Source of the DNA: a virus
IMG/VR virus record: IMGVR_UViG_3300048777_000077
Location: 1-22,842 of that record
DNA length: 22,842 bases
Reading direction: 5' to 3' (one strand)
The translations under genes and the position numbers were made by a program. Positions 1-22,292 of this stretch are shown one piece after another; position 1 is the first letter of the stretch; the number at the start of each line of letters is the position of its first letter. The notes under the pieces were generated by a model that was not told where the DNA came from, ran no database searches, and was given only the letters and a program-made list of their open reading frames with translations.

Positions 1-3000
1 CACTTCGGGGGGGACAGTCTTGCCGCCAGAGCCAACCATCGTATGCGTGAGAGCGGATGGCTTTTCCATTGCACCCTGAATATCCCTGATTCGCTTCCGG
101 GCCGCTTCTCCGCGATCAATCCGTTCGCCTCTGGTTGAAGTAACAAAACTCTCAGGGACGTTGTCTAGAGCTTGACCGAGTCCTCCAGCGTTCTGGTACT
201 GAATCGCCTCGGCCAGATGTGCCAGAGTTCTCTTCGGAGCGCCGTCAATCTTCTGTTCCGCTTCCGCTATGCGCAGAGCCTCTCCCAGATCGGCGTCTAA
301 ATGGCCTTGTGTGCGGTAGCGATCCCAGAGTATGCCTTCATCCTCTGATAGAGTTTTCCTCAACTCTTTGTCGCGTTCTTTGGCTTTGATCCCACGCTCG
401 ATGTAGGCGGCATACTCCTTTTCCTCTTTCTCCACAGGCTTTTCAACTGGCGTAGATACCGGCTTGCTCTCCTTCGGAATCGTCTTCCCCTCAATCGACT
501 GTGCATAGTCGTACTCGGTCTTGGAGACGATCCACTCGGTTCCATCCGCGCTCTTGATTCGGTACGACGGAACCTTGATACCAGCCTTCTGCTGCGCGAG
601 CATCTCCCGGTACTTGATCGTCTTGGGGTGCATCTCGTTTCCGGTCGGCACTCCAGCCTTGCGCATTGCGCCGATTTCACGGTCCAGTTTGCGCTCTGCG
701 GCGTCGTCCTGCACCTGCTTGATCGATGTGGTTCCACCGCCAGCCATGCGCTCGTCGATGATCGCGCGGCGCGTGAGAACCTGACCGGACTCCCGGCGAA
801 CCTGGGTGTCGAGGTACTTGTCGGCCTTGGCCTGGACCGCCCGCTTGAACCGCTCCGCAGAGGTCTCTATCGGCTTGGGAGATGGCGTTACTTTCGGAGA
901 TTCATTAGGCTTAGGCTCGTACTTGGCCGGAACCTCTACGCCCGGCTTACCAATGGCGTCGGTACGCGCGGGGCGGTCCATGACCTTCGCCCCCATCGGG
1001 CTCGTCCCGGCCATGGGCGCTATCTGGGGCGTCGGAGGCTTGTAGAAGGAGGGCTTGGGCTTCTCGGCTGTAATCTTCCGCCACGCCTCTATGTAGAGCC
1101 TGTTCGCCTCTGGGCGCGAAATGTCCAACTGCTTCGCAATCTCATCTACCATCCCGCCAGGGTTGAACTTATCCATGTCGGGGTTAGCCTTGATGATTGC
1201 CGCAGCGCGGGAGACATTGTCCTTTACTTCTTCTTTCCCTTCCCCACCGCCCTGCTGGTCCAGTGGCTTTTCTTCGCCGGCGGTTGGGGCGCCTTCTCCG
1301 GCAGGTCCATTCCCTTGCTGGCCTGGTTGAATTCGTCCACCACCGCCGGCCCGATCTTCTTGCGGTTGGCGTTGAAGTACCCTCTCTGTTTCTGGCTCGC
1401 GTATGGCATCGGTTTTCCTCCCTGCACCTTCTGGCGCATCATCGGCGCGTGGCTGGCCGCCGTTCCGAGGTTCATTGACATTGGCTGGTTCCTTTCTTGG
1501 TCCATAAAAAAGCGTGTCGTCGAAATCGACGTAGAGAGCCTTCCCCGCAGGGATGGGCGGGATCACCATCGGCTCGTTCACGTCAGGCTTCACGTTCACG
1601 AGATTGTCGAGGATGGCGCCAAAGTCCGGTCCCTTGATGTTGGTCACCGGCAATTGGCCGAGCCCGACAGCGGAGAGCGCTTGGTGGACGGCCGGGTTGT
1701 CAGCCTCAGCGGAGAAGATGACGACCTTCTGCCCGGTGGCAACCAGTTTCTTGATCTGCTCGACGCGGGCCGGGATCGGAGCACCTACGGGATGCGCAGT
1801 GCCGGGCGCGGGCTGGCCCTGCTGGACCGGGGCGTGCGCGGGTGCAGCCTCTCCGCCTACCGGCTTCAATCCGGCCAGCGGCTTCCACACTTGGGCAAAC
1901 TTGTCCTGAACCAGTGCGCGGTCGCCATCGACCCGCACGATCCTTGCCGGGCGCGGCGTGCCCTTGTTCGTCTGGTATTCAACGGCGTCGCCGGGCTTGA
2001 ATGGCGCGGCGGCTTCCGGCTTCGCAACGTCGAACCTGGGTTGTACGGCTGACGTCTCGGGCTTCGGGTTGCCGAGTTGCGTCTGCTCCGGCGACTCGGA
2101 CAGCACGGCGCGGCCTTGGTTCTCTGGTTGCTTGGCGTCCTGAGCCTTGGCCTTGTCCATCGCAGCCTTGATCTGCGCGCCAATCTCGTCCGCCTCTTTC
2201 TGCGCCGCCTTCTGCTGCCAGCTTCCAGGTGCGGCGGCCTCAGCCTCAGCCTGCGCCTCTTTCTGGCGATCATAGTCCGCATCGCTGGCCTTCATCGCGG
2301 CGGCCTGCGCCGGGCCGGGAACGACCTGCAACTCCGAAACCTGATTCGGCTCGCCGGGCTTGCCCGTCTGCACCCCGTACTGGGTGACGTTTAGCCCGTT
2401 GTTCTCGATCTTCTCCTTCGAGACCACCGGCAGCGTGCCTTCGATAGCCTGCTCAACAGCCGGTGCGGCATCCGGACTGGGCGCCACAACGCGCGCGCCG
2501 AGGTGGTCGATATTCGTTTCTGAGGGCTTTCCCCGATCTTCCTTGTTCTCCTGCGAGTCAGGCGTCTTGACGCGCGGGCCAGCCACTTCGGCGCCGGGTA
2601 CGGCTGAGGCGACCTGAGAGGCCATGTTCTCAAGCGTTGGTTTCTGTTCCTGCGCGGACTGGCGCAGGTCGGCAGGGTTGGTGCTCGCCTGAACGACTGA
2701 ACGCTGGCCGTCCTGTTGGCCCTGTGGTACGGCTGGTTGCTGGGTTAGGGGATTGGCCTGCGGCGACGGCGCGGCGGTCTCTGGCACGGCAGGACGCGCA
2801 GCAGATGGGGGAACCATCACGGCAGACGTGGCCAACTGCGGAGAGGGAGCGGCCTGGACGGGCGCGGGCGGCGGGACGATCTTTGGGATGATCGGCCTGA
2901 CTCTTCCGGCGGTCTCCCCCGGAGGCGGCAGGCCGGGACGGTTTACCAGCGCATTGCCATGCTCGTCGACAATCACGCCGCGGTCGGCAGGAATCTCAGG

Positions 3001-4236
3001 GGGGGGAGCGAACCGTGTTGGCGGCGTAGTGCGTTCAACGGCGGTTGCGGGATTGACCGGGGGCGGGGAATTCTGTGGGTTAGGAGGCGCTTCGCCGGGG
3101 GTCGAGGCTTGCAGCCGGGGCGCGCCAGAGGGTTGAAGCGGGAGCATGGGAGATTCTGGCGCGAACTCGACGGGTGGTAGAGGGCCGGGACGTACAGCCA
3201 GCGAGGTGTCGGGTGGTGTCGGAAGTTGCCGCTGCGCAAACTCTGCGCCCTCGGGCGTGGGATATGGTTGCGTGACGGTGGGGCGGCCACGGTCGATGGG
3301 CATTCCCTTGACGACCGAATGGGCCATGAGCCCGGCCATCGCAGCATCCAGCACCGCCTCTGTGATGTCCCCCGCTACCTTGCCTTTTTGCTGACTGCGG
3401 TGGGCGTCCCATGCTTTTTGGAAGTCGGCATCCGAGATTGGGTGGTCCGGATCGCCAAGCATATTGACTATCTCCCGATAGCTTTTCTGAGCTTCCGGGT
3501 TGTTGCCCTCACTGTAGTCTTTCCTGGCCTTCTCGATGCTGTCGTAACTCCCCTTTGCCGACTGGGCGGTAAATATCCCAGTGAGAATATCCGAGACCTT
3601 GCCCAGTTTGCCTAATGGGCCTGCGGCTGCCAGAGCCAAGCTCTCCGGGCTCGTTAGGGATTCTCCAAACTTATTGACTTTCTCGACAATGTTTGCGGCG
3701 ATAGGATGCGCAGCATCAAAGTATGCGTTTGCTCGGCCCTGCCGTTCCCACTCCTTTTGGCGCAGCGCCCTCCCCTCCTCCGAATAGCTCCGAGGGTCGG
3801 CTATATTTTCAAGCCAATCCATTCCCTGTTTCACCTTGGGCCAAGTCGGGGTGGACACCCATGCGGGACGTTGCGGGAACGAAGTCTTGTCCTGCTGGTA
3901 GGTGGGAGATGATTCACTCTCGGTTGGCTGGAGATGCAGGGCGGAAGCCAATCTCGGCGATGACGACTGAAGGGTGTGACCGACAACACTGTTCGCAACC
4001 GACTCGCGGGCGCGTTCGAGGATGCCCGGTTGTGGGGCGGCTTGCATCGTGTCCTGGCCGGTGAGGCGCGGCGACGTCGCCTGAAGCTGTGCGGGCTGTT
4101 GTGGCGCGGCGGCAGGCGCGGCATTCGCTTTCGGGAGCGGGATCAGGGGACTGTTGTCATCAAACTCAGGTCCAGCCGATTTCCCGAGCGGAATGACTGG
4201 ACTCTGATCATCAAAGACTACAGGGGCCGTCGTCAT
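1..4236 (-). CDS. Giant multi-domain virion/ejection-type protein, partial (C-terminus beyond left edge)
   Basis: I checked every codon from the ATG at 4236 to base 1 and found no stop, giving at least 1412 residues; the 3' end lies outside the window. The start overlaps the TAA of the upstream gene (TAATG), so translation is coupled. Residues 1-36 hold two copies of FDDxSP[VL]IPLxK. About 150-350 is helical, with an Ala/Leu/Gly-rich patch at 199-212. About 350-740 is Pro/Ala-rich and probably disordered, with a charged coiled coil near 645-705. About 745-795 looks like a small SH3-like barrel (PGDAVEY, then ARIVRVDGDRALV). About 815-912 carries HAD-type motifs: S842 (VVIFSAE), K868 (PVTNIKG), D877 (AILDN) and D904-D906 (DFDDT). 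From about 1005 a helical segment begins (MVDEIAKQLDIS). Giant multi-domain phage proteins near ejection genes are often packaged and injected; that role is inferred. Residues 919-1004 overlap another gene in a different frame, so this stretch may be a linker or a frameshift artefact. Confidence 0.8.
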   Translation of the reverse strand, partial: MTTAPVVFDDQSPVIPLGKSAGPEFDDNSPLIPLPKANAAPAAAPQQPAQLQATSPRLTGQDTMQAAPQPGILERARESVANSVVGHTLQSSSPRLASALHLQPTESESSPTYQQDKTSFPQRPAWVSTPTWPKVKQGMDWLENIADPRSYSEEGRALRQKEWERQGRANAYFDAAHPIAANIVEKVNKFGESLTSPESLALAAAGPLGKLGKVSDILTGIFTAQSAKGSYDSIEKARKDYSEGNNPEAQKSYREIVNMLGDPDHPISDADFQKAWDAHRSQQKGKVAGDITEAVLDAAMAGLMAHSVVKGMPIDRGRPTVTQPYPTPEGAEFAQRQLPTPPDTSLAVRPGPLPPVEFAPESPMLPLQPSGAPRLQASTPGEAPPNPQNSPPPVNPATAVERTTPPTRFAPPPEIPADRGVIVDEHGNALVNRPGLPPPGETAGRVRPIIPKIVPPPAPVQAAPSPQLATSAVMVPPSAARPAVPETAAPSPQANPLTQQPAVPQGQQDGQRSVVQASTNPADLRQSAQEQKPTLENMASQVASAVPGAEVAGPRVKTPDSQENKEDRGKPSETNIDHLGARVVAPSPDAAPAVEQAIEGTLPVVSKEKIENNGLNVTQYGVQTGKPGEPNQVSELQVVPGPAQAAAMKASDADYDRQKEAQAEAEAAAPGSWQQKAAQKEADEIGAQIKAAMDKAKAQDAKQPENQGRAVLSESPEQTQLGNPKPETSAVQPRFDVAKPEAAAPFKPGDAVEYQTNKGTPRPARIVRVDGDRALVQDKFAQVWKPLAGLKPVGGEAAPAHAPVQQGQPAPGTAHPVGAPIPARVEQIKKLVATGQKVVIFSAEADNPAVHQALSAVGLGQLPVTNIKGPDFGAILDNLVNVKPDVNEPMVIPPIPAGKALYVDFDDTLFYGPRKEPANVNEPRNGGQPRADDAPEGAGRKTDAIREPETERVLQRQPQEDRAGGGGRIQPGQQGNGPAGEGAPTAGEEKPLDQQGGGEGKEEVKDNVSRAAAIIKANPDMDKFNPGGMVDEIAKQLDISRPEANRLYIEAWRKITAEKPKPSFYKPPTPQIAPMAGTSPMGAKVMDRPARTDAIGKPGVEVPAKYEPKPNESPKVTPSPKPIETSAERFKRAVQAKADKYLDTQVRRESGQVLTRRAIIDERMAGGGTTSIKQVQDDAAERKLDREIGAMRKAGVPTGNEMHPKTIKYREMLAQQKAGIKVPSYRIKSADGTEWIVSKTEYDYAQSIEGKTIPKESKPVSTPVEKPVEKEEKEYAAYIERGIKAKERDKELRKTLSEDEGILWDRYRTQGHLDADLGEALRIAEAEQKIDGAPKRTLAHLAEAIQYQNAGGLGQALDNVPESFVTSTRGERIDRGEAARKRIRDIQGAMEKPSALTHTMVGSGGKTVPPEV
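1224..1481 (-). CDS. Small phage protein with MPYAS-KQRGYF motif, nested in the giant frame
   Basis: This 85-residue protein reads in a different minus-strand frame from the giant ORF that contains it. The ATG at 1481 has AAAGGA upstream at good spacing; the frame is open to an ATG at 1505, which lacks a ribosome site. The motif MPYASQKQRGYFNAN, then KIGPAVVDEFNQASKG, resembles small phage proteins of unknown function that start MPxAS-x-KQ and continue with a VxEFxxASKGxxLP stretch; this is from memory. The C-terminus is very basic (GKGKKK). Coding signal is strong: in 1321-1380 the presumed third codon position is G or C in 19 of 20 codons in this frame, against 6 of 20 in the giant frame (hand count). 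It may be a separate gene or, if a frameshift exists at the A6 run 1506-1511, the C-terminal part of the upstream protein. Confidence 0.75.
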   Translation of the reverse strand: MSMNLGTAASHAPMMRQKVQGGKPMPYASQKQRGYFNANRKKIGPAVVDEFNQASKGMDLPEKAPQPPAKKSHWTSRAVGKGKKK

Positions 4237-7088: not shown

Positions 7089-7901
7089 TTAGATTGCGGT
7101 GAGACGCGCTCCATTACCGCCCTTGATTCCGCCGCCGCCCGGAGTCCCGTTGACCTGCGCCAATCCGACCGGCTCCCACGAATCTTTCAGCACCCCAGGC
7201 AGCACCGGACTGATCTGGAACCGCTTGCCGTCAAAGGCAACGATCTGGTTCTCGGAGTAGTCGGTGTTGAGGATCGTCGCCGAGGGCCTGCTGACCTGCG
7301 TTGTGCCGCGGCCTGCCGTGTAACCGTGGTAGGGGCCATTTGGCCCGTAGACCTGGATCAAGGGAACCTGCCCAGGCGCGCCCTGGCCCACCACATTGGC
7401 ATAGTTCCAGTTGTTCAGAACCGTCCCCGGCTCACATGCCGCACTTGATTGCAATCCGGCCTGAACAGCCGTCTGCTGGATGAGCTGGTGCGTGTTCCAA
7501 GTGGAACCATCGTAGCTTGACCGGATGCGCACAAACGGCGCCTGGCCCGGCGCCGGGATACTCACCGTGTTGTTTGCTGACACCGGAAGAGTCGTCACGC
7601 CCTGCGAGAAGTTCTTGACCGGCGAATAGCTGACCTCGTGATAGATGGTCGCCTTGGCCGCCTGAGTCGGGTTCGTGATCTGTAGGCTGATGACTCCGTT
7701 CGCGCCCTGGGCCGCTGCGGTTGCCGCTGGCGGCGGCGTCGTCGAGGACGGCAGCGTTCCCGATGTCGGTGACACCCAATTGGTCCCCGTTACCTGATGG
7801 GCCTGGACATGCTCGTTCATGAACTGGAGAAGGAGGTTGCGCATGTCTTCGCGGTTGCCTCCGACTGCTGACTCAATCATCGACCGGATCTCTGCGCTCA
7901 T
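7089..7901 (-). CDS. Putative minor tail protein with beta-sandwich domain
   Basis: This 270-residue protein begins with a helical segment (residues 1-37, EIRSMIESAVGGNREDMRNLL), followed by a Pro/Thr/Ala-rich linker (about 40-68). A beta-rich domain follows at about 68-165 with alternating strands (GVISLQITNPTQAAKATIYHE, then FVRIRSSYDGSTWNTHQL). The phrase RIRSSYDGSTW is typical of fibronectin-III-like modules in phage tail proteins. The C-terminus is Gly-rich. The ATG follows GGAGG and overlaps the upstream stop as ATGA, so it is translationally coupled to the 1155-residue tail protein and probably shares its structure. Function is inferred from context and fold impression; host binding or decoration of the tail are both possible. 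Confidence 0.85.
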   Translation of the reverse strand: MSAEIRSMIESAVGGNREDMRNLLLQFMNEHVQAHQVTGTNWVSPTSGTLPSSTTPPPAATAAAQGANGVISLQITNPTQAAKATIYHEVSYSPVKNFSQGVTTLPVSANNTVSIPAPGQAPFVRIRSSYDGSTWNTHQLIQQTAVQAGLQSSAACEPGTVLNNWNYANVVGQGAPGQVPLIQVYGPNGPYHGYTAGRGTTQVSRPSATILNTDYSENQIVAFDGKRFQISPVLPGVLKDSWEPVGLAQVNGTPGGGGIKGGNGARLTAI

Positions 7902-10900
7902 CCCCCGGCCTCCGATTCATCCCGCGCTTGATACATGGGGATCGTGTACATGGCGAGCCATTTCAACATGAAGAACGCTCCCGGCACTCGCCCATTTGTG
8001 AACCGCATCCGCCAGCGCTCGCTGAGTTTCGACGGAACCATTCGGCTCAGTCCCTCACTTTCCATGATGTCCAAGTCGATTGGCCGGCATGGAATGATTG
8101 TTCCGTGGAGCGGTCCGAGTTGGTTCTCGCCTGTAACCACGGTGCGCCCGGCCAAGAAGTAGGGATAGAGCGTGCCGTTGCCTCGCGCGTTGAGAGTGAA
8201 TCCCTCGATCTTGCACAGCGCCATCGTCGTCTGAGGGCACACGGTCTCGAAGATGCAGTCGATCCCGGCCCCGTTGTCGCTGAAGATTCCCGGTGTGACT
8301 GCCTGCACGGTCCCATCGGCCGCACTGGACCCGTAGACGAGCTGGGAAGTATTGTACGTCGTGTCGGGGAACGGGATGCCCACTTGGCCCTGCGGCGGCT
8401 GCCCATCGGGAACTGGAATCGACCTCTCAATCCTGTCGCAAACGAATCCCTGCACGTCGTTGATGGAGAACTTCCGCACTTCGGCGACGGCGATCTCCTT
8501 CTGGGAGAACGTCGAGAAGTGAACCGGCTGTTCCCAGCCTTCGAGGTAGTTGAGAACGACTTCCTGGTTCGGTACAGTCGAGTTGCCCACCGGCACCAGG
8601 ATATGAACTTCGTGCTTCTCTTGGTCGATCTTGCAACAGATCGTCTCGGCAGCCAGCCAGTTGATCGTCCGCCAGAAGTAGGGGATTTCCTTGGTCACAA
8701 GCTCGGGAGTGGTCTCCGTGTAGCGATAGATGCCGCTTCGGTGGACGAAGATGATGAAATCCCCACAGGCATCGAAGGCCCGCGGCCCGCATGGCCCGCG
8801 CTCACTCCACCGCTTAGTTGCCGTCCATGACTGGGGATTGTTCGGGTTGGCCGAAAATGTGAACCCAGACCGCTCCCTAACCCCGTAGACCGTCCCGCGG
8901 TATTCCAGTGTGCCCCACGCACGCTCGCCGTCGTCCGAGCCCACGGAGATGTAGCTCAGGTCGGCATAGTAGCTCTCGGGGTCGCCGGCCAGCGACACCC
9001 ACCAGCCGGAATAGTAGCCGGGCACGCTAGCCTGGAAGATGCGGTCCACGCTCGGGCAATACGCGACATGCACCGCCTGGTTCGGCCAGATCACATTCAG
9101 CCGGTCGGTCACGTCGTTGGAGACGTCCAGATATTCGTCGGTGAAGTTGAACGTTCCGTTCGTCGTCACATTGTCTTGGAAGGCGGTCGCGCTCTGGTTG
9201 ATCGTGTCCGAGAGGAACGTCTGCGGGTAGACGAAATTCTTGGCGGGGATCTGGAGATTGACGTTGCCTATCCACCAGAATGGCCCGTCATTCGAGCCAT
9301 CTGCTACCGAGAAAGCGGCGATGCGCGCCAGGACGTAAGCCGGGCCGGTCGCAACCTTGAAGATTCCTAACTCCCATCCGTCTTCGTCCACATCGTATTG
9401 GATGACAGAGTTCGCGGTGAAACCAGAAACCGTAAAATTCTGGTTCATGTACATCAGAGCGGCGTATCGATAGCCCTGGGTGCCGTTGATCCCGCCGGTT
9501 GATGTGTCGGCGGCGATGTTTCCGCCGGAGCCAGTGCCGTTCACGATTGGCGGATTAGGCCCGGTCGCCGATTCAAGGATGAACGGCTGCGCCTGGGGCT
9601 GGTAGTAGCCAACCAGCGCAAAGGCGGTCGACGGAGGCGCTGGTGCCCCGGTCGCTACATCGGCCTCATAGATGCCCACTGATGCGATGGTGTAGAGGTC
9701 GTTGTTGTTGTCGTCCTGGGGAACCGCCACGGTCACAAGGGTGGCATCTCCGGCATTCGTGTTGACGATGAGATTAAGCGGGCCGAGCATCGTCTCGCCG
9801 TTGCCGTTGGTGTAGGTCTGTGCCACATATACATCACGCCCGGCGGGGAATAGCCCAGATGGGAGCGTGGCGGTATTGTTTGCGGGAGGTTGCACTCCAC
9901 TCGCTTGAGTCGTGATAACTGGCGTGCTGCCCAGCGCGAAATAGCCAACCAGTTTTAGGTATGCCGGCTGGCCGCCGCCTGTGGGAATATTCCACTCATA
10001 GACATTGACGCCCTGGACCGTTGGCCCGTAACTGCTCGCCAAATCCACCTGGACACCTTGGCCTCCCGCCGTGGTCTCAATCTGCGCCCACGCGCCCTGG
10101 GTCGTCTCGCCATAGGCATTAACGAGCGTCAATCCAACCGTCACGACCTGTCCGGCGCCGAAACTCCCGCCGCCATTCACAAGGGACAGACCCGGTGCGT
10201 TCGGAGGAGCTACCGTGCTGCCTGCGGGGATTCGCTGAATTTGAACCTCGGCGTCTGGGGTTGGAAGCTGGCCGGGCGTGATGCGTGCCGTGCAGAGGGA
10301 AGGAGGAGCGCCAGCCGCGATAGCGCCTGTGCAGTTGTAATTGGTACCAAGAGCGATCGGCGTCCAGTTCGCCTGCTCGTATGTCGAGATGGGCGGGGCG
10401 GCGGAGCCGTGGGCGACGCTGGCCGTGTAGACGTTGGCGCCGTTCGGGATGTAGGCAGCCGAAAGCTCCGAGAGCCATCCGGGGAGCGCAGCGAGAGCCG
10501 GTATCGGCACGACCACGGTAGTTGCTGCCGCCAAGGTGGTAATCATCACCGGAGCACTCGGCAGTGTTTGACCCTGGTTGTTGACCAGCGTCATCACCAT
10601 GTATACGTCGAGGTTGGCTGCCCAAGTCCCACCGCCTGCCAGCGTCAGGACGAAGTTGCTAGGCGGCGGCGCCACTCGGTTGGCAAGAACAGCCGTGTAC
10701 TCCTGCCATTCCGCAGAACCGTCGTAGACTGTTCCTCCTTCGGTGAGCGGCCAGGCCGGCTGCACCGCCCCTGTCACGCCCGCCTGGATGCAGCGATAGG
10801 TATGGCCGTTGCCGCTGGGCGTGTTGGGCGTGGCCATCTCTCCAACCAGGACCGGCGTGTTGGCCACCCAGTTCCACCCGAACGGCTTCATCCCATAGGG

Positions 10901-11365
10901 CCAGACGTTTTTGGTTCTGGGATCGATCACCGCCATGCCTGAGAGCGGCGTGCTCAGGTCCGAGAAGGCAGCGAAGACCTTGTTGTAGGTCTGCGCCGCG
11001 ATCATGTGGGCATCGGCTGGGGGAGTAAAGCTGGAGTTGAGCTGAAAGGCATTCATGCGGCCGGAGCCCACTGGAATTTCGTACTGCAAGGAGCCCGCCA
11101 GGTCGAAGATGATCGGCACCTGGAGGAACTGCTCGGCCGCCGTCTCTGGGGTGTAGAGAGCACCGACCAGGCCCGTGATGGGGCTTTGGTTGATGCCCTG
11201 CATAGTGGTGTTGATGCCGTCGCGGGTGCGGACTGAGGTCAGGCCGTCGTAACAGCAGTTGCGGACCAGCGCGGCCAGTCCTGTCGGGAGATTGGTCTCA
11301 TCGTCGTTATCGTTGTAGCCGAGGAACCGACTTATGATCGCCGGCGTTCCGCTGAACTGAGCCAT
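7898..11365 (-). CDS. Large tail protein, probable nozzle/stabilisation protein with tandem Ig-like modules
   Basis: At 1155 residues this is the largest complete gene. Residues about 1-160 start as a tail protein (ISRFLGYNDND, then GLTSVRTRDGIN). Residues 188-223 carry a pattern common in phage tail proteins, YRCIQAGVTG-x3-PAWPLTEGGTVYDG. Three related beta-sandwich modules follow, marked by LVNNQGQTLPS (260-270), LVNAYGETTQG (414-424) and YTNGNGETMLG (518-528). The C-terminal third (about 750-960) is rich in WP, YRGTVYGVRERSGFTFSAN and FIIFVHRSGIYRY strand repeats, as in the propeller-bearing tail nozzle proteins of short-tailed phages (T7 gp12 and P22 gp10 as analogues). Homology is inferred. 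GGAG lies four bases before the ATG. A terminator-like hairpin sits immediately upstream. The stop overlaps the next gene as ATGA. Confidence 0.88.
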   Translation of the reverse strand: MAQFSGTPAIISRFLGYNDNDDETNLPTGLAALVRNCCYDGLTSVRTRDGINTTMQGINQSPITGLVGALYTPETAAEQFLQVPIIFDLAGSLQYEIPVGSGRMNAFQLNSSFTPPADAHMIAAQTYNKVFAAFSDLSTPLSGMAVIDPRTKNVWPYGMKPFGWNWVANTPVLVGEMATPNTPSGNGHTYRCIQAGVTGAVQPAWPLTEGGTVYDGSAEWQEYTAVLANRVAPPPSNFVLTLAGGGTWAANLDVYMVMTLVNNQGQTLPSAPVMITTLAAATTVVVPIPALAALPGWLSELSAAYIPNGANVYTASVAHGSAAPPISTYEQANWTPIALGTNYNCTGAIAAGAPPSLCTARITPGQLPTPDAEVQIQRIPAGSTVAPPNAPGLSLVNGGGSFGAGQVVTVGLTLVNAYGETTQGAWAQIETTAGGQGVQVDLASSYGPTVQGVNVYEWNIPTGGGQPAYLKLVGYFALGSTPVITTQASGVQPPANNTATLPSGLFPAGRDVYVAQTYTNGNGETMLGPLNLIVNTNAGDATLVTVAVPQDDNNNDLYTIASVGIYEADVATGAPAPPSTAFALVGYYQPQAQPFILESATGPNPPIVNGTGSGGNIAADTSTGGINGTQGYRYAALMYMNQNFTVSGFTANSVIQYDVDEDGWELGIFKVATGPAYVLARIAAFSVADGSNDGPFWWIGNVNLQIPAKNFVYPQTFLSDTINQSATAFQDNVTTNGTFNFTDEYLDVSNDVTDRLNVIWPNQAVHVAYCPSVDRIFQASVPGYYSGWWVSLAGDPESYYADLSYISVGSDDGERAWGTLEYRGTVYGVRERSGFTFSANPNNPQSWTATKRWSERGPCGPRAFDACGDFIIFVHRSGIYRYTETTPELVTKEIPYFWRTINWLAAETICCKIDQEKHEVHILVPVGNSTVPNQEVVLNYLEGWEQPVHFSTFSQKEIAVAEVRKFSINDVQGFVCDRIERSIPVPDGQPPQGQVGIPFPDTTYNTSQLVYGSSAADGTVQAVTPGIFSDNGAGIDCIFETVCPQTTMALCKIEGFTLNARGNGTLYPYFLAGRTVVTGENQLGPLHGTIIPCRPIDLDIMESEGLSRMVPSKLSERWRMRFTNGRVPGAFFMLKWLAMYTIPMYQARDESEAGG

Positions 11366-21878: not shown

Positions 21879-22292
21879 TCAAGTTGGATTGTTCCACAAA
21901 GCTACTTCCGAGGCCCGCCGCGCCGTCAGGGCCGCACTCACCACACCCTCACAATGGTTCCAGCGGGGGATCTGCTCCGGCACATTCTCAATGCCGTGGC
22001 CGCACAGCGTCTGAAGCGCACCGATGCCCAGGTTAAAGCCGAAGTCGATGAGCGCATCGAACTGGTTCTGGTTCAACGGCCAGCCTAGGCTGTTGACGGC
22101 GTTCTCCACCTTGCCTACATCCTGCGCCAGCAAAGCCCGAGCCTCTTCCCGCGTTATGCCCTCCGGGTAAGACTCGCCGGGGAGCAGGTCGTGGCCGTAG
22201 CCGATGGCCTCATGCCCCGCGTCCGGGTACACGGTGGCGCTAAATCCTTCGTTGCCCATGATGAGGGCGAGTCCTCGCTGACTGGTCTGCAT
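21879..22292 (-). CDS. Endolysin, GH24 (T4-lysozyme-like) muramidase
   Basis: This 137-residue protein is a phage lysozyme that would cut the peptidoglycan glycan chain at the end of infection. E15 lies in MGNEGFSATVYPD, D24 is eight residues later, and the IGYGHDL motif follows, matching the E-x8-[DC]-...-[T/S]IGxGH catalytic signature. The usual Thr or Ser just before IGYGH is Ala29. The C-terminal lobe carries LNQNQFDALIDFGFNLGIGAL and the expected RWN-x-LTARRASE-x2-LW region, so the fold looks complete, though the loop after GIGAL is slightly short. There is no signal peptide or N-terminal anchor, so export would need a holin. The ribosome site is weak (GAGAG). A strong terminator follows. 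Confidence 0.88.
   Translation of the reverse strand: MQTSQRGLALIMGNEGFSATVYPDAGHEAIGYGHDLLPGESYPEGITREEARALLAQDVGKVENAVNSLGWPLNQNQFDALIDFGFNLGIGALQTLCGHGIENVPEQIPRWNHCEGVVSAALTARRASEVALWNNPT

Follow-up and report, generated by a model that had tools for sequence, protein, structure and literature searches.

The best-known examples of fully nested genes come from viruses with little room in their genomes. Among the internal overlapping genes of phages, gene E of phiX174 lies within gene D (PMC8227390). Likewise, Rz1 of phage lambda is nested within Rz. Phages and conjugative elements also encode large polyvalent proteins (Iyer et al. 2017, PMC5512222), for which packaging into the virion and injection with the DNA have been proposed (PMC5512222). 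Swapping of modules at fixed joints is familiar from polymorphic toxin-like proteins. Here, we describe a phage locus that, together with its relatives, shares features with each of these systems. As in the phiX174 E/D and lambda Rz1/Rz pairs, a complete gene occupies another frame of the same strand, so that one stretch of DNA would give two products. A search of the literature did not find this arrangement reported, although only open-licence papers were covered and this is no proof of novelty; the text of PMC5512222, searched for overlapping genes, does not mention them.

The window analysed here is a 22,842-base virus record, the IMG/VR phage contig IMGVR_UViG_3300048777_000077. ORF calling and homologous giants define a giant ORF on its minus strand (1–4236), which has at least 1,412 codons, is truncated by the window end and contains zero internal stops. 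The nested small gene (1224–1481, minus strand, stop included), identified as an ORF and by its homologues, encodes 85 amino acids (MSMNLGTAASHAPMMRQKVQGGKPMPYASQKQRGYFNANRKKI...GKGKKK) and lies wholly within the giant ORF, on the same strand and one base out of frame. Alignments place its conserved core, MPYxSxxQRxYFNANRxK...EFNxASKGxxLPEK, together with a basic tail, at 1227–1409 (minus strand). An AAAGGA (1490–1495, minus strand) that precedes the ATG at 1481 by 8 nt is its probable ribosome binding site. The nested frame is open over 1224–1505 on the minus strand, and a run of six Ts adjoining this interval (1506–1511, minus strand) had been proposed as a slippery site. From sequence alone, the ATG at 1481 is the likely start rather than that at 1505, as four relatives (L008, L012, L014 and L016) have a homologous N-terminus (M..NLG.AA.. 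/ MNSG.AQ..) and a purine-rich, ribosome-site-like stretch at the homologous place, and as the T6 run found in the window is not conserved in relatives. A second possible nested start lies at 1409 (minus strand), with GGGAGG at 1417–1422. On recounting G and C at third codon positions, the giant frame had 18 of 20 in 1561–1620 and 6 of 20 in 1321–1380; the nested frame had 18 of 19 in the latter interval, and the giant-frame coding signal is back below about 1200. The preliminary description of this locus had reported a second minus-strand frame inside the giant gene, the T6 run and AAAGGA site, the third-position switch, and a giant-frame signal that resumes after 1224 without a stop. All of these held: both ORFs were confirmed open, and the claimed 19 of 20 for the nested frame differs from our count by an edge codon.

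The window giant has homologues in L008, L012, L013/L014, L016 and L041, and had no match in Pfam, the protein being cut off by the window end. Immediately upstream of the overlap, alignment revealed a giant-frame domain (1483–1821, minus strand) with HAD-like motifs in an unusual order (IFSAE..LPVTNIKGPDF..LDN.VNV...GKALYVDFDDTL). The permuted order, with IFSAE/IFTAR and LPVTN.KG.DF..L.DN first and LYVD.D.TL last, is also seen at the homologous place of L008, L014 and L016, whereas L012 has the usual HAD order with GVDLDGTL first. A permuted HAD fold remains unconfirmed: the structure of the HAD-like segment was predicted, and searching for similar folds gave no significant match. Elsewhere on the minus strand, the window encodes an endolysin-like protein at 21879–22292 (phrog_7, E = 4.5e-32) and, at 7898–11365, a protein of 1,155 aa that includes a head-decoration-like stretch (phrog_20658, E = 2.1e-8). 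None of the remaining window proteins tested against PHROGs matched at E <= 0.001.

To place the nested gene among its relatives, we searched viral contigs with the small protein, two alignments of the small protein, the giant and the giant-frame linker, and ran one further search of genome contigs; together these gave loci L002–L135. The small-protein homologues follow the consensus MPYKSxAQRxYFNANRxKLExQGVxVxEWNxASKGKKLP. After removal of identical coding sequences, 79 distinct coding sequences (CDS) remain, not counting loci where the domain begins a longer protein (L006, L021, L023, L048 and L053). Of these 79, 36 are embedded in an open giant frame, and most of the giants have 1,000–3,250 codons. 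The relative frame is identical in all 36, with giant codons starting two bases after nested codons. None of the 36 contains a stop in the giant frame, which extends without interruption over 49 or more codons upstream and 319 or more downstream of the nested CDS (medians 931 and 1094). By contrast, 41 of the 79 are standalone or adjacent genes with 1–14 stops in the giant-type frame, and the mean over all 43 non-nested CDS (these 41 and two ambiguous ones) is 5.7. Third-frame stops are similarly frequent in nested and other CDS (means 2.6 and 2.4), so the difference is confined to the giant frame. When codons of the first 17 nested loci were resampled using local codon usage, 1.4–9.2 stops were expected in each and none was observed. 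The stop contrast is partly circular, as the nested class is defined by the open frame itself; no such circularity affects the linker-only search, the synonymous-rate tests or the homologous flanks. The nested loci are not all independent, as they represent about 9–10 recognisable giant groups.

The two ambiguous CDS (L035, 6964–7446; L047, 6886–7413) are short and GC-rich, with a giant-type frame open over only 161–176 codons. This could be due to chance, or they could be an early or decayed form. In two further loci (L008, 5848–6063; L012, 5968–6186) the nested ORF lacks the conserved core: its N- and C-terminal parts are kept, and a Pro/Gln/Met-rich stretch stands in place of the core. Among 25 records that bear a giant, the small gene is present exactly once, as the nested copy, in 23, and the other two (L011 and L012) hold the diverged form. 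No clear relative was found among cultured phages by tblastn.

The nested frame leaves a mark on the synonymous differences of the giant frame. Across the 9 distinct loci of cluster G, these differences occurred at a rate of 0.017 in the overlap versus 0.205–0.223 downstream, where the lowest 62-codon window had 0.138; the upstream rate was 0.147 (77 codons) and that of the nested frame 0.142. Third positions in this cluster vary most in the two flanks of the overlap, and their variability collapses inside it. In cluster C (9 loci), the giant-frame rate was 0.028 in the overlap versus 0.394 upstream and 0.225 downstream, the flank values being limited to pairs with less than 45% amino-acid difference. 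This means that the giant-frame synonymous rate in the overlap is cut about 8–14 fold relative to the flanks, and in these two sets of close relatives both flanks keep giant-frame periodicity. The tests rest on relatives from other clusters and not on close relatives of the window. A second synonymous dip in cluster G (columns 1000–1020) was considered as another nested gene and rejected, both other frames being filled with stops. A search with the giant-frame linker alone (49 aa) retrieved ten loci, three of their contigs being known before, and in all ten the small gene is intact in the other frame.

These comparisons show that a conserved small protein is encoded in the nested frame, that the giant frame is open through it and coding on both sides, and that the overlap exceeds chance in both the stop-codon and the synonymous-rate tests. 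A nested pair is expected to have one gene wholly inside another, on the same strand and in a different frame, and to have both frames held by selection. The locus meets the first expectation by its layout and the second through the synonymous rate in its relatives and the stop-free giant frame with coding flanks. We therefore regard it, with high confidence, as a true embedded dual-coding gene; this rests on comparative sequence evidence, and there are no expression data for either frame. Many nested loci have a nested-frame stop within 0–4 codons before the nested ATG, so the small product must initiate by itself. In the mechanism that we propose, internal ribosome entry on the giant mRNA at AAAGGA-N8-ATG (1495–1479) would yield the 85-aa basic protein, and ribosomes coming from the giant's own start would decode this stretch in the giant frame, giving an acidic disordered linker that joins folded modules.

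Two alternatives centre on the T6 run, and both had been raised in the preliminary description alongside an overprinted disordered linker. A programmed +1 frameshift, or slippage, at this run could fuse the upstream part of the giant to the small domain. In the window, the run directly precedes the first ATG of the nested frame, at 1505, and the nested frame passes through it without a stop. However, the run is absent from L008, L012, L014 and L016, which share the window flanks; the nested-frame stop a few codons from the ATG in many loci precludes a fusion from an upstream shift; and standalone homologues start at the same ATG. The conserved slippery site at the frame junction that programmed frameshifting calls for is thus missing, and this model can be set aside almost entirely. 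The run could instead be a homopolymer error: with one base fewer, the upstream part and the small gene would form one frame and the downstream giant would be separate. A T6 run is a classic error site and the window is a single metagenomic contig, but dozens of contigs from different samples show the arrangement without the run, and in L008 and the window alike the giant keeps its frame from one homologous flank of the overlap to the other. A sequencing error can likewise be set aside almost entirely. Of the three models put forward, only the overprinted linker is supported by the many relatives. The comparison of homologues that had been suggested as a check found both frames kept, no stop in the giant frame, and synonymous-site constraint.

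A harder objection is that translation of the overlap gives the small protein alone, the open giant frame there being incidental, and that the apparent giant is a pair of genes, the second of which starts in or after the overlap. In favour of this, giant-frame residues vary in the overlap and it is the nested frame that is most strongly constrained. Against it, the giant frame has no stops in the 36 distinct CDS, compared with a mean of 5.7 elsewhere, and continues into homologous downstream sequence. In addition, the nested third-position rate (0.142) is somewhat lower than that of the downstream giant (0.205–0.223), as a second constraint predicts, with the caveat that it equals the 77-codon upstream value (0.147). 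We consider the two-gene explanation very improbable, and dual coding remains the preferred reading.

Under dual coding, the giant-frame stretch that overlaps the nested gene (1224–1482, minus strand; giant residues about 919–1005) is a Gly/Pro/Glu/Gln/Arg-rich linker. Across 28 loci, order-promoting residues make up 14.7% of the overlap versus 29% elsewhere in the giants, and the giant-frame overlap consists of 53% Gly, Pro, Glu and Gln with a net charge of -0.09. The composition of these loci bears out the earlier view of a Gly/Pro/Glu-rich, linker-like sequence. The overlap of the giant is thus likely an acidic, flexible disordered linker, although this is inferred from its sequence. The product of the third frame, were it made, would be strongly basic (+0.32). 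The giant-type frame usually carries more stops in standalone homologues, yet it is always the frame that is used. Possibly, this constant choice exists because only that frame gives a near-neutral to acidic disordered linker, or it reflects a single ancestry.

Wider distribution is a criterion for recognising the older of two overlapping frames (PMC8227390). The small gene occurs standalone, as an N-terminal domain and directly after giant genes, and because of this wider distribution it is probably the ancestral frame, through which the giant frame was later extended. This refines the preliminary description in that the direction of overprinting was likely the reverse, with the giant linker as the overprint. 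Standalone small genes, with no giant at all, are found near the terminase large subunit or portal, as assigned with PHROGs, in eight loci (L010, L030, L034, L037, L040, L042, L046 and L051). As the N-terminus of longer phage proteins, the small domain is seen in L023 (7001–8353) and L048 (7001–7711), both with DUF6321, and in L021 (1095–2978), with DUF5872. In the small-protein tree, which rests on 48 columns and therefore too few, the nested label changes 10 times and supported branches force only 2 of these changes. The tree leaves it undecided whether embedding had one or several origins.

The giants that carry the nested gene are diverse. Disparate enzymatic domains within one polypeptide, a feature of large polyvalent proteins (PMC5512222), were met in three relatives: L002 (inorganic pyrophosphatase, strawberry-notch helicase and methylase-like matches), L008 (RelA/SpoT and 2H phosphoesterase) and L017 (GGACT and a weak zeta-toxin match). 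For several other giants no known domain was matched. The multi-domain giants thus resemble large polyvalent proteins; several other giants differ in lacking a known domain, and that of the window has no Pfam match. For 28 loci, we compared the 350 residues that flank the overlap on each side. Of 30 homologous pairs, 14 are homologous in both flanks, 12 in the upstream flank alone and 4 in the downstream flank alone, so that 16 of the 30 share a single side. The window giant is alike upstream only when compared with L014 and L016, and downstream only when compared with L012. Similarly, L045 and L130 have a common upstream and not a common downstream part, and L130 and L131 are near-identical downstream and diverged upstream. 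The overlap thus often lies where giants with one homologous half carry unrelated other halves, and the arrangement is not particular to the window phage but recurs in diverse giant genes, often at module junctions.

Standalone small genes also lie directly downstream of a giant gene (L082, L083, L103, L105, L108 and L112, near 6001), the giants before them having about 1,900–2,000 codons and being split in L105. The C-terminal half of the L103/L108 giant (about 2,000 codons) is homologous to the part of L019/L031 that follows the nested gene. This means that the small gene travels with giant genes, either inside them or directly after them. The overlap may act as a constant, frame-preserving hinge or recombination anchor, although a causal role in swapping has not been shown, and embedding would keep the small gene linked to the giant. 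A bolder reading, which we put forward tentatively and hold to be less probable than not, is that this is a widespread device, in which an ancestral small gene sits out of frame within the genes of giant proteins and its conserved DNA would be at once a gene, a disordered linker and a frame-preserving recombination joint for module swaps.

The function of the small protein is less clear. It is basic, and AlphaFold predicted only two short helices (mean pLDDT 61.8), too weak a model for fold search. Nothing significant was found in Pfam, PHROGs, NCBIfam or the PDB, the best PHROG being 16906 (E = 0.031). Judging from neighbourhood only, the role that we favour is that of a virion or packaging accessory acting with the giant, but this is the least secure part of our reading, and we rate it as less likely than not.

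As in phiX174 E/D and lambda Rz1/Rz, disorder would ease the conflict between frames. Unlike in those pairs, the embedded gene appears to be old and the host linker new. Furthermore, the host belongs to large dsDNA phages and is a giant of 1,000–3,250 codons, and otherwise unrelated giants repeatedly have the overlap at their domain-swap junctions. Polymorphic toxin-like proteins likewise join interchangeable modules to a constant stretch, but here the constant stretch doubles as a gene of its own, and the variable part can lie on either side.

Our comparison defines a small phage protein family without a Pfam, PHROGs or NCBIfam match, which annotation that disfavours overlapping genes is likely to miss. 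It reveals that diverse lineages of large dsDNA phages retain a nested gene within giants whose modules turn over fast, and that its relative frame is constant. The dozens of natural cases, together with their non-nested controls, can serve to study how overprinted linkers evolve, and to ask if embedding guards against gene loss and if conserved overlaps serve as joints for recombination.
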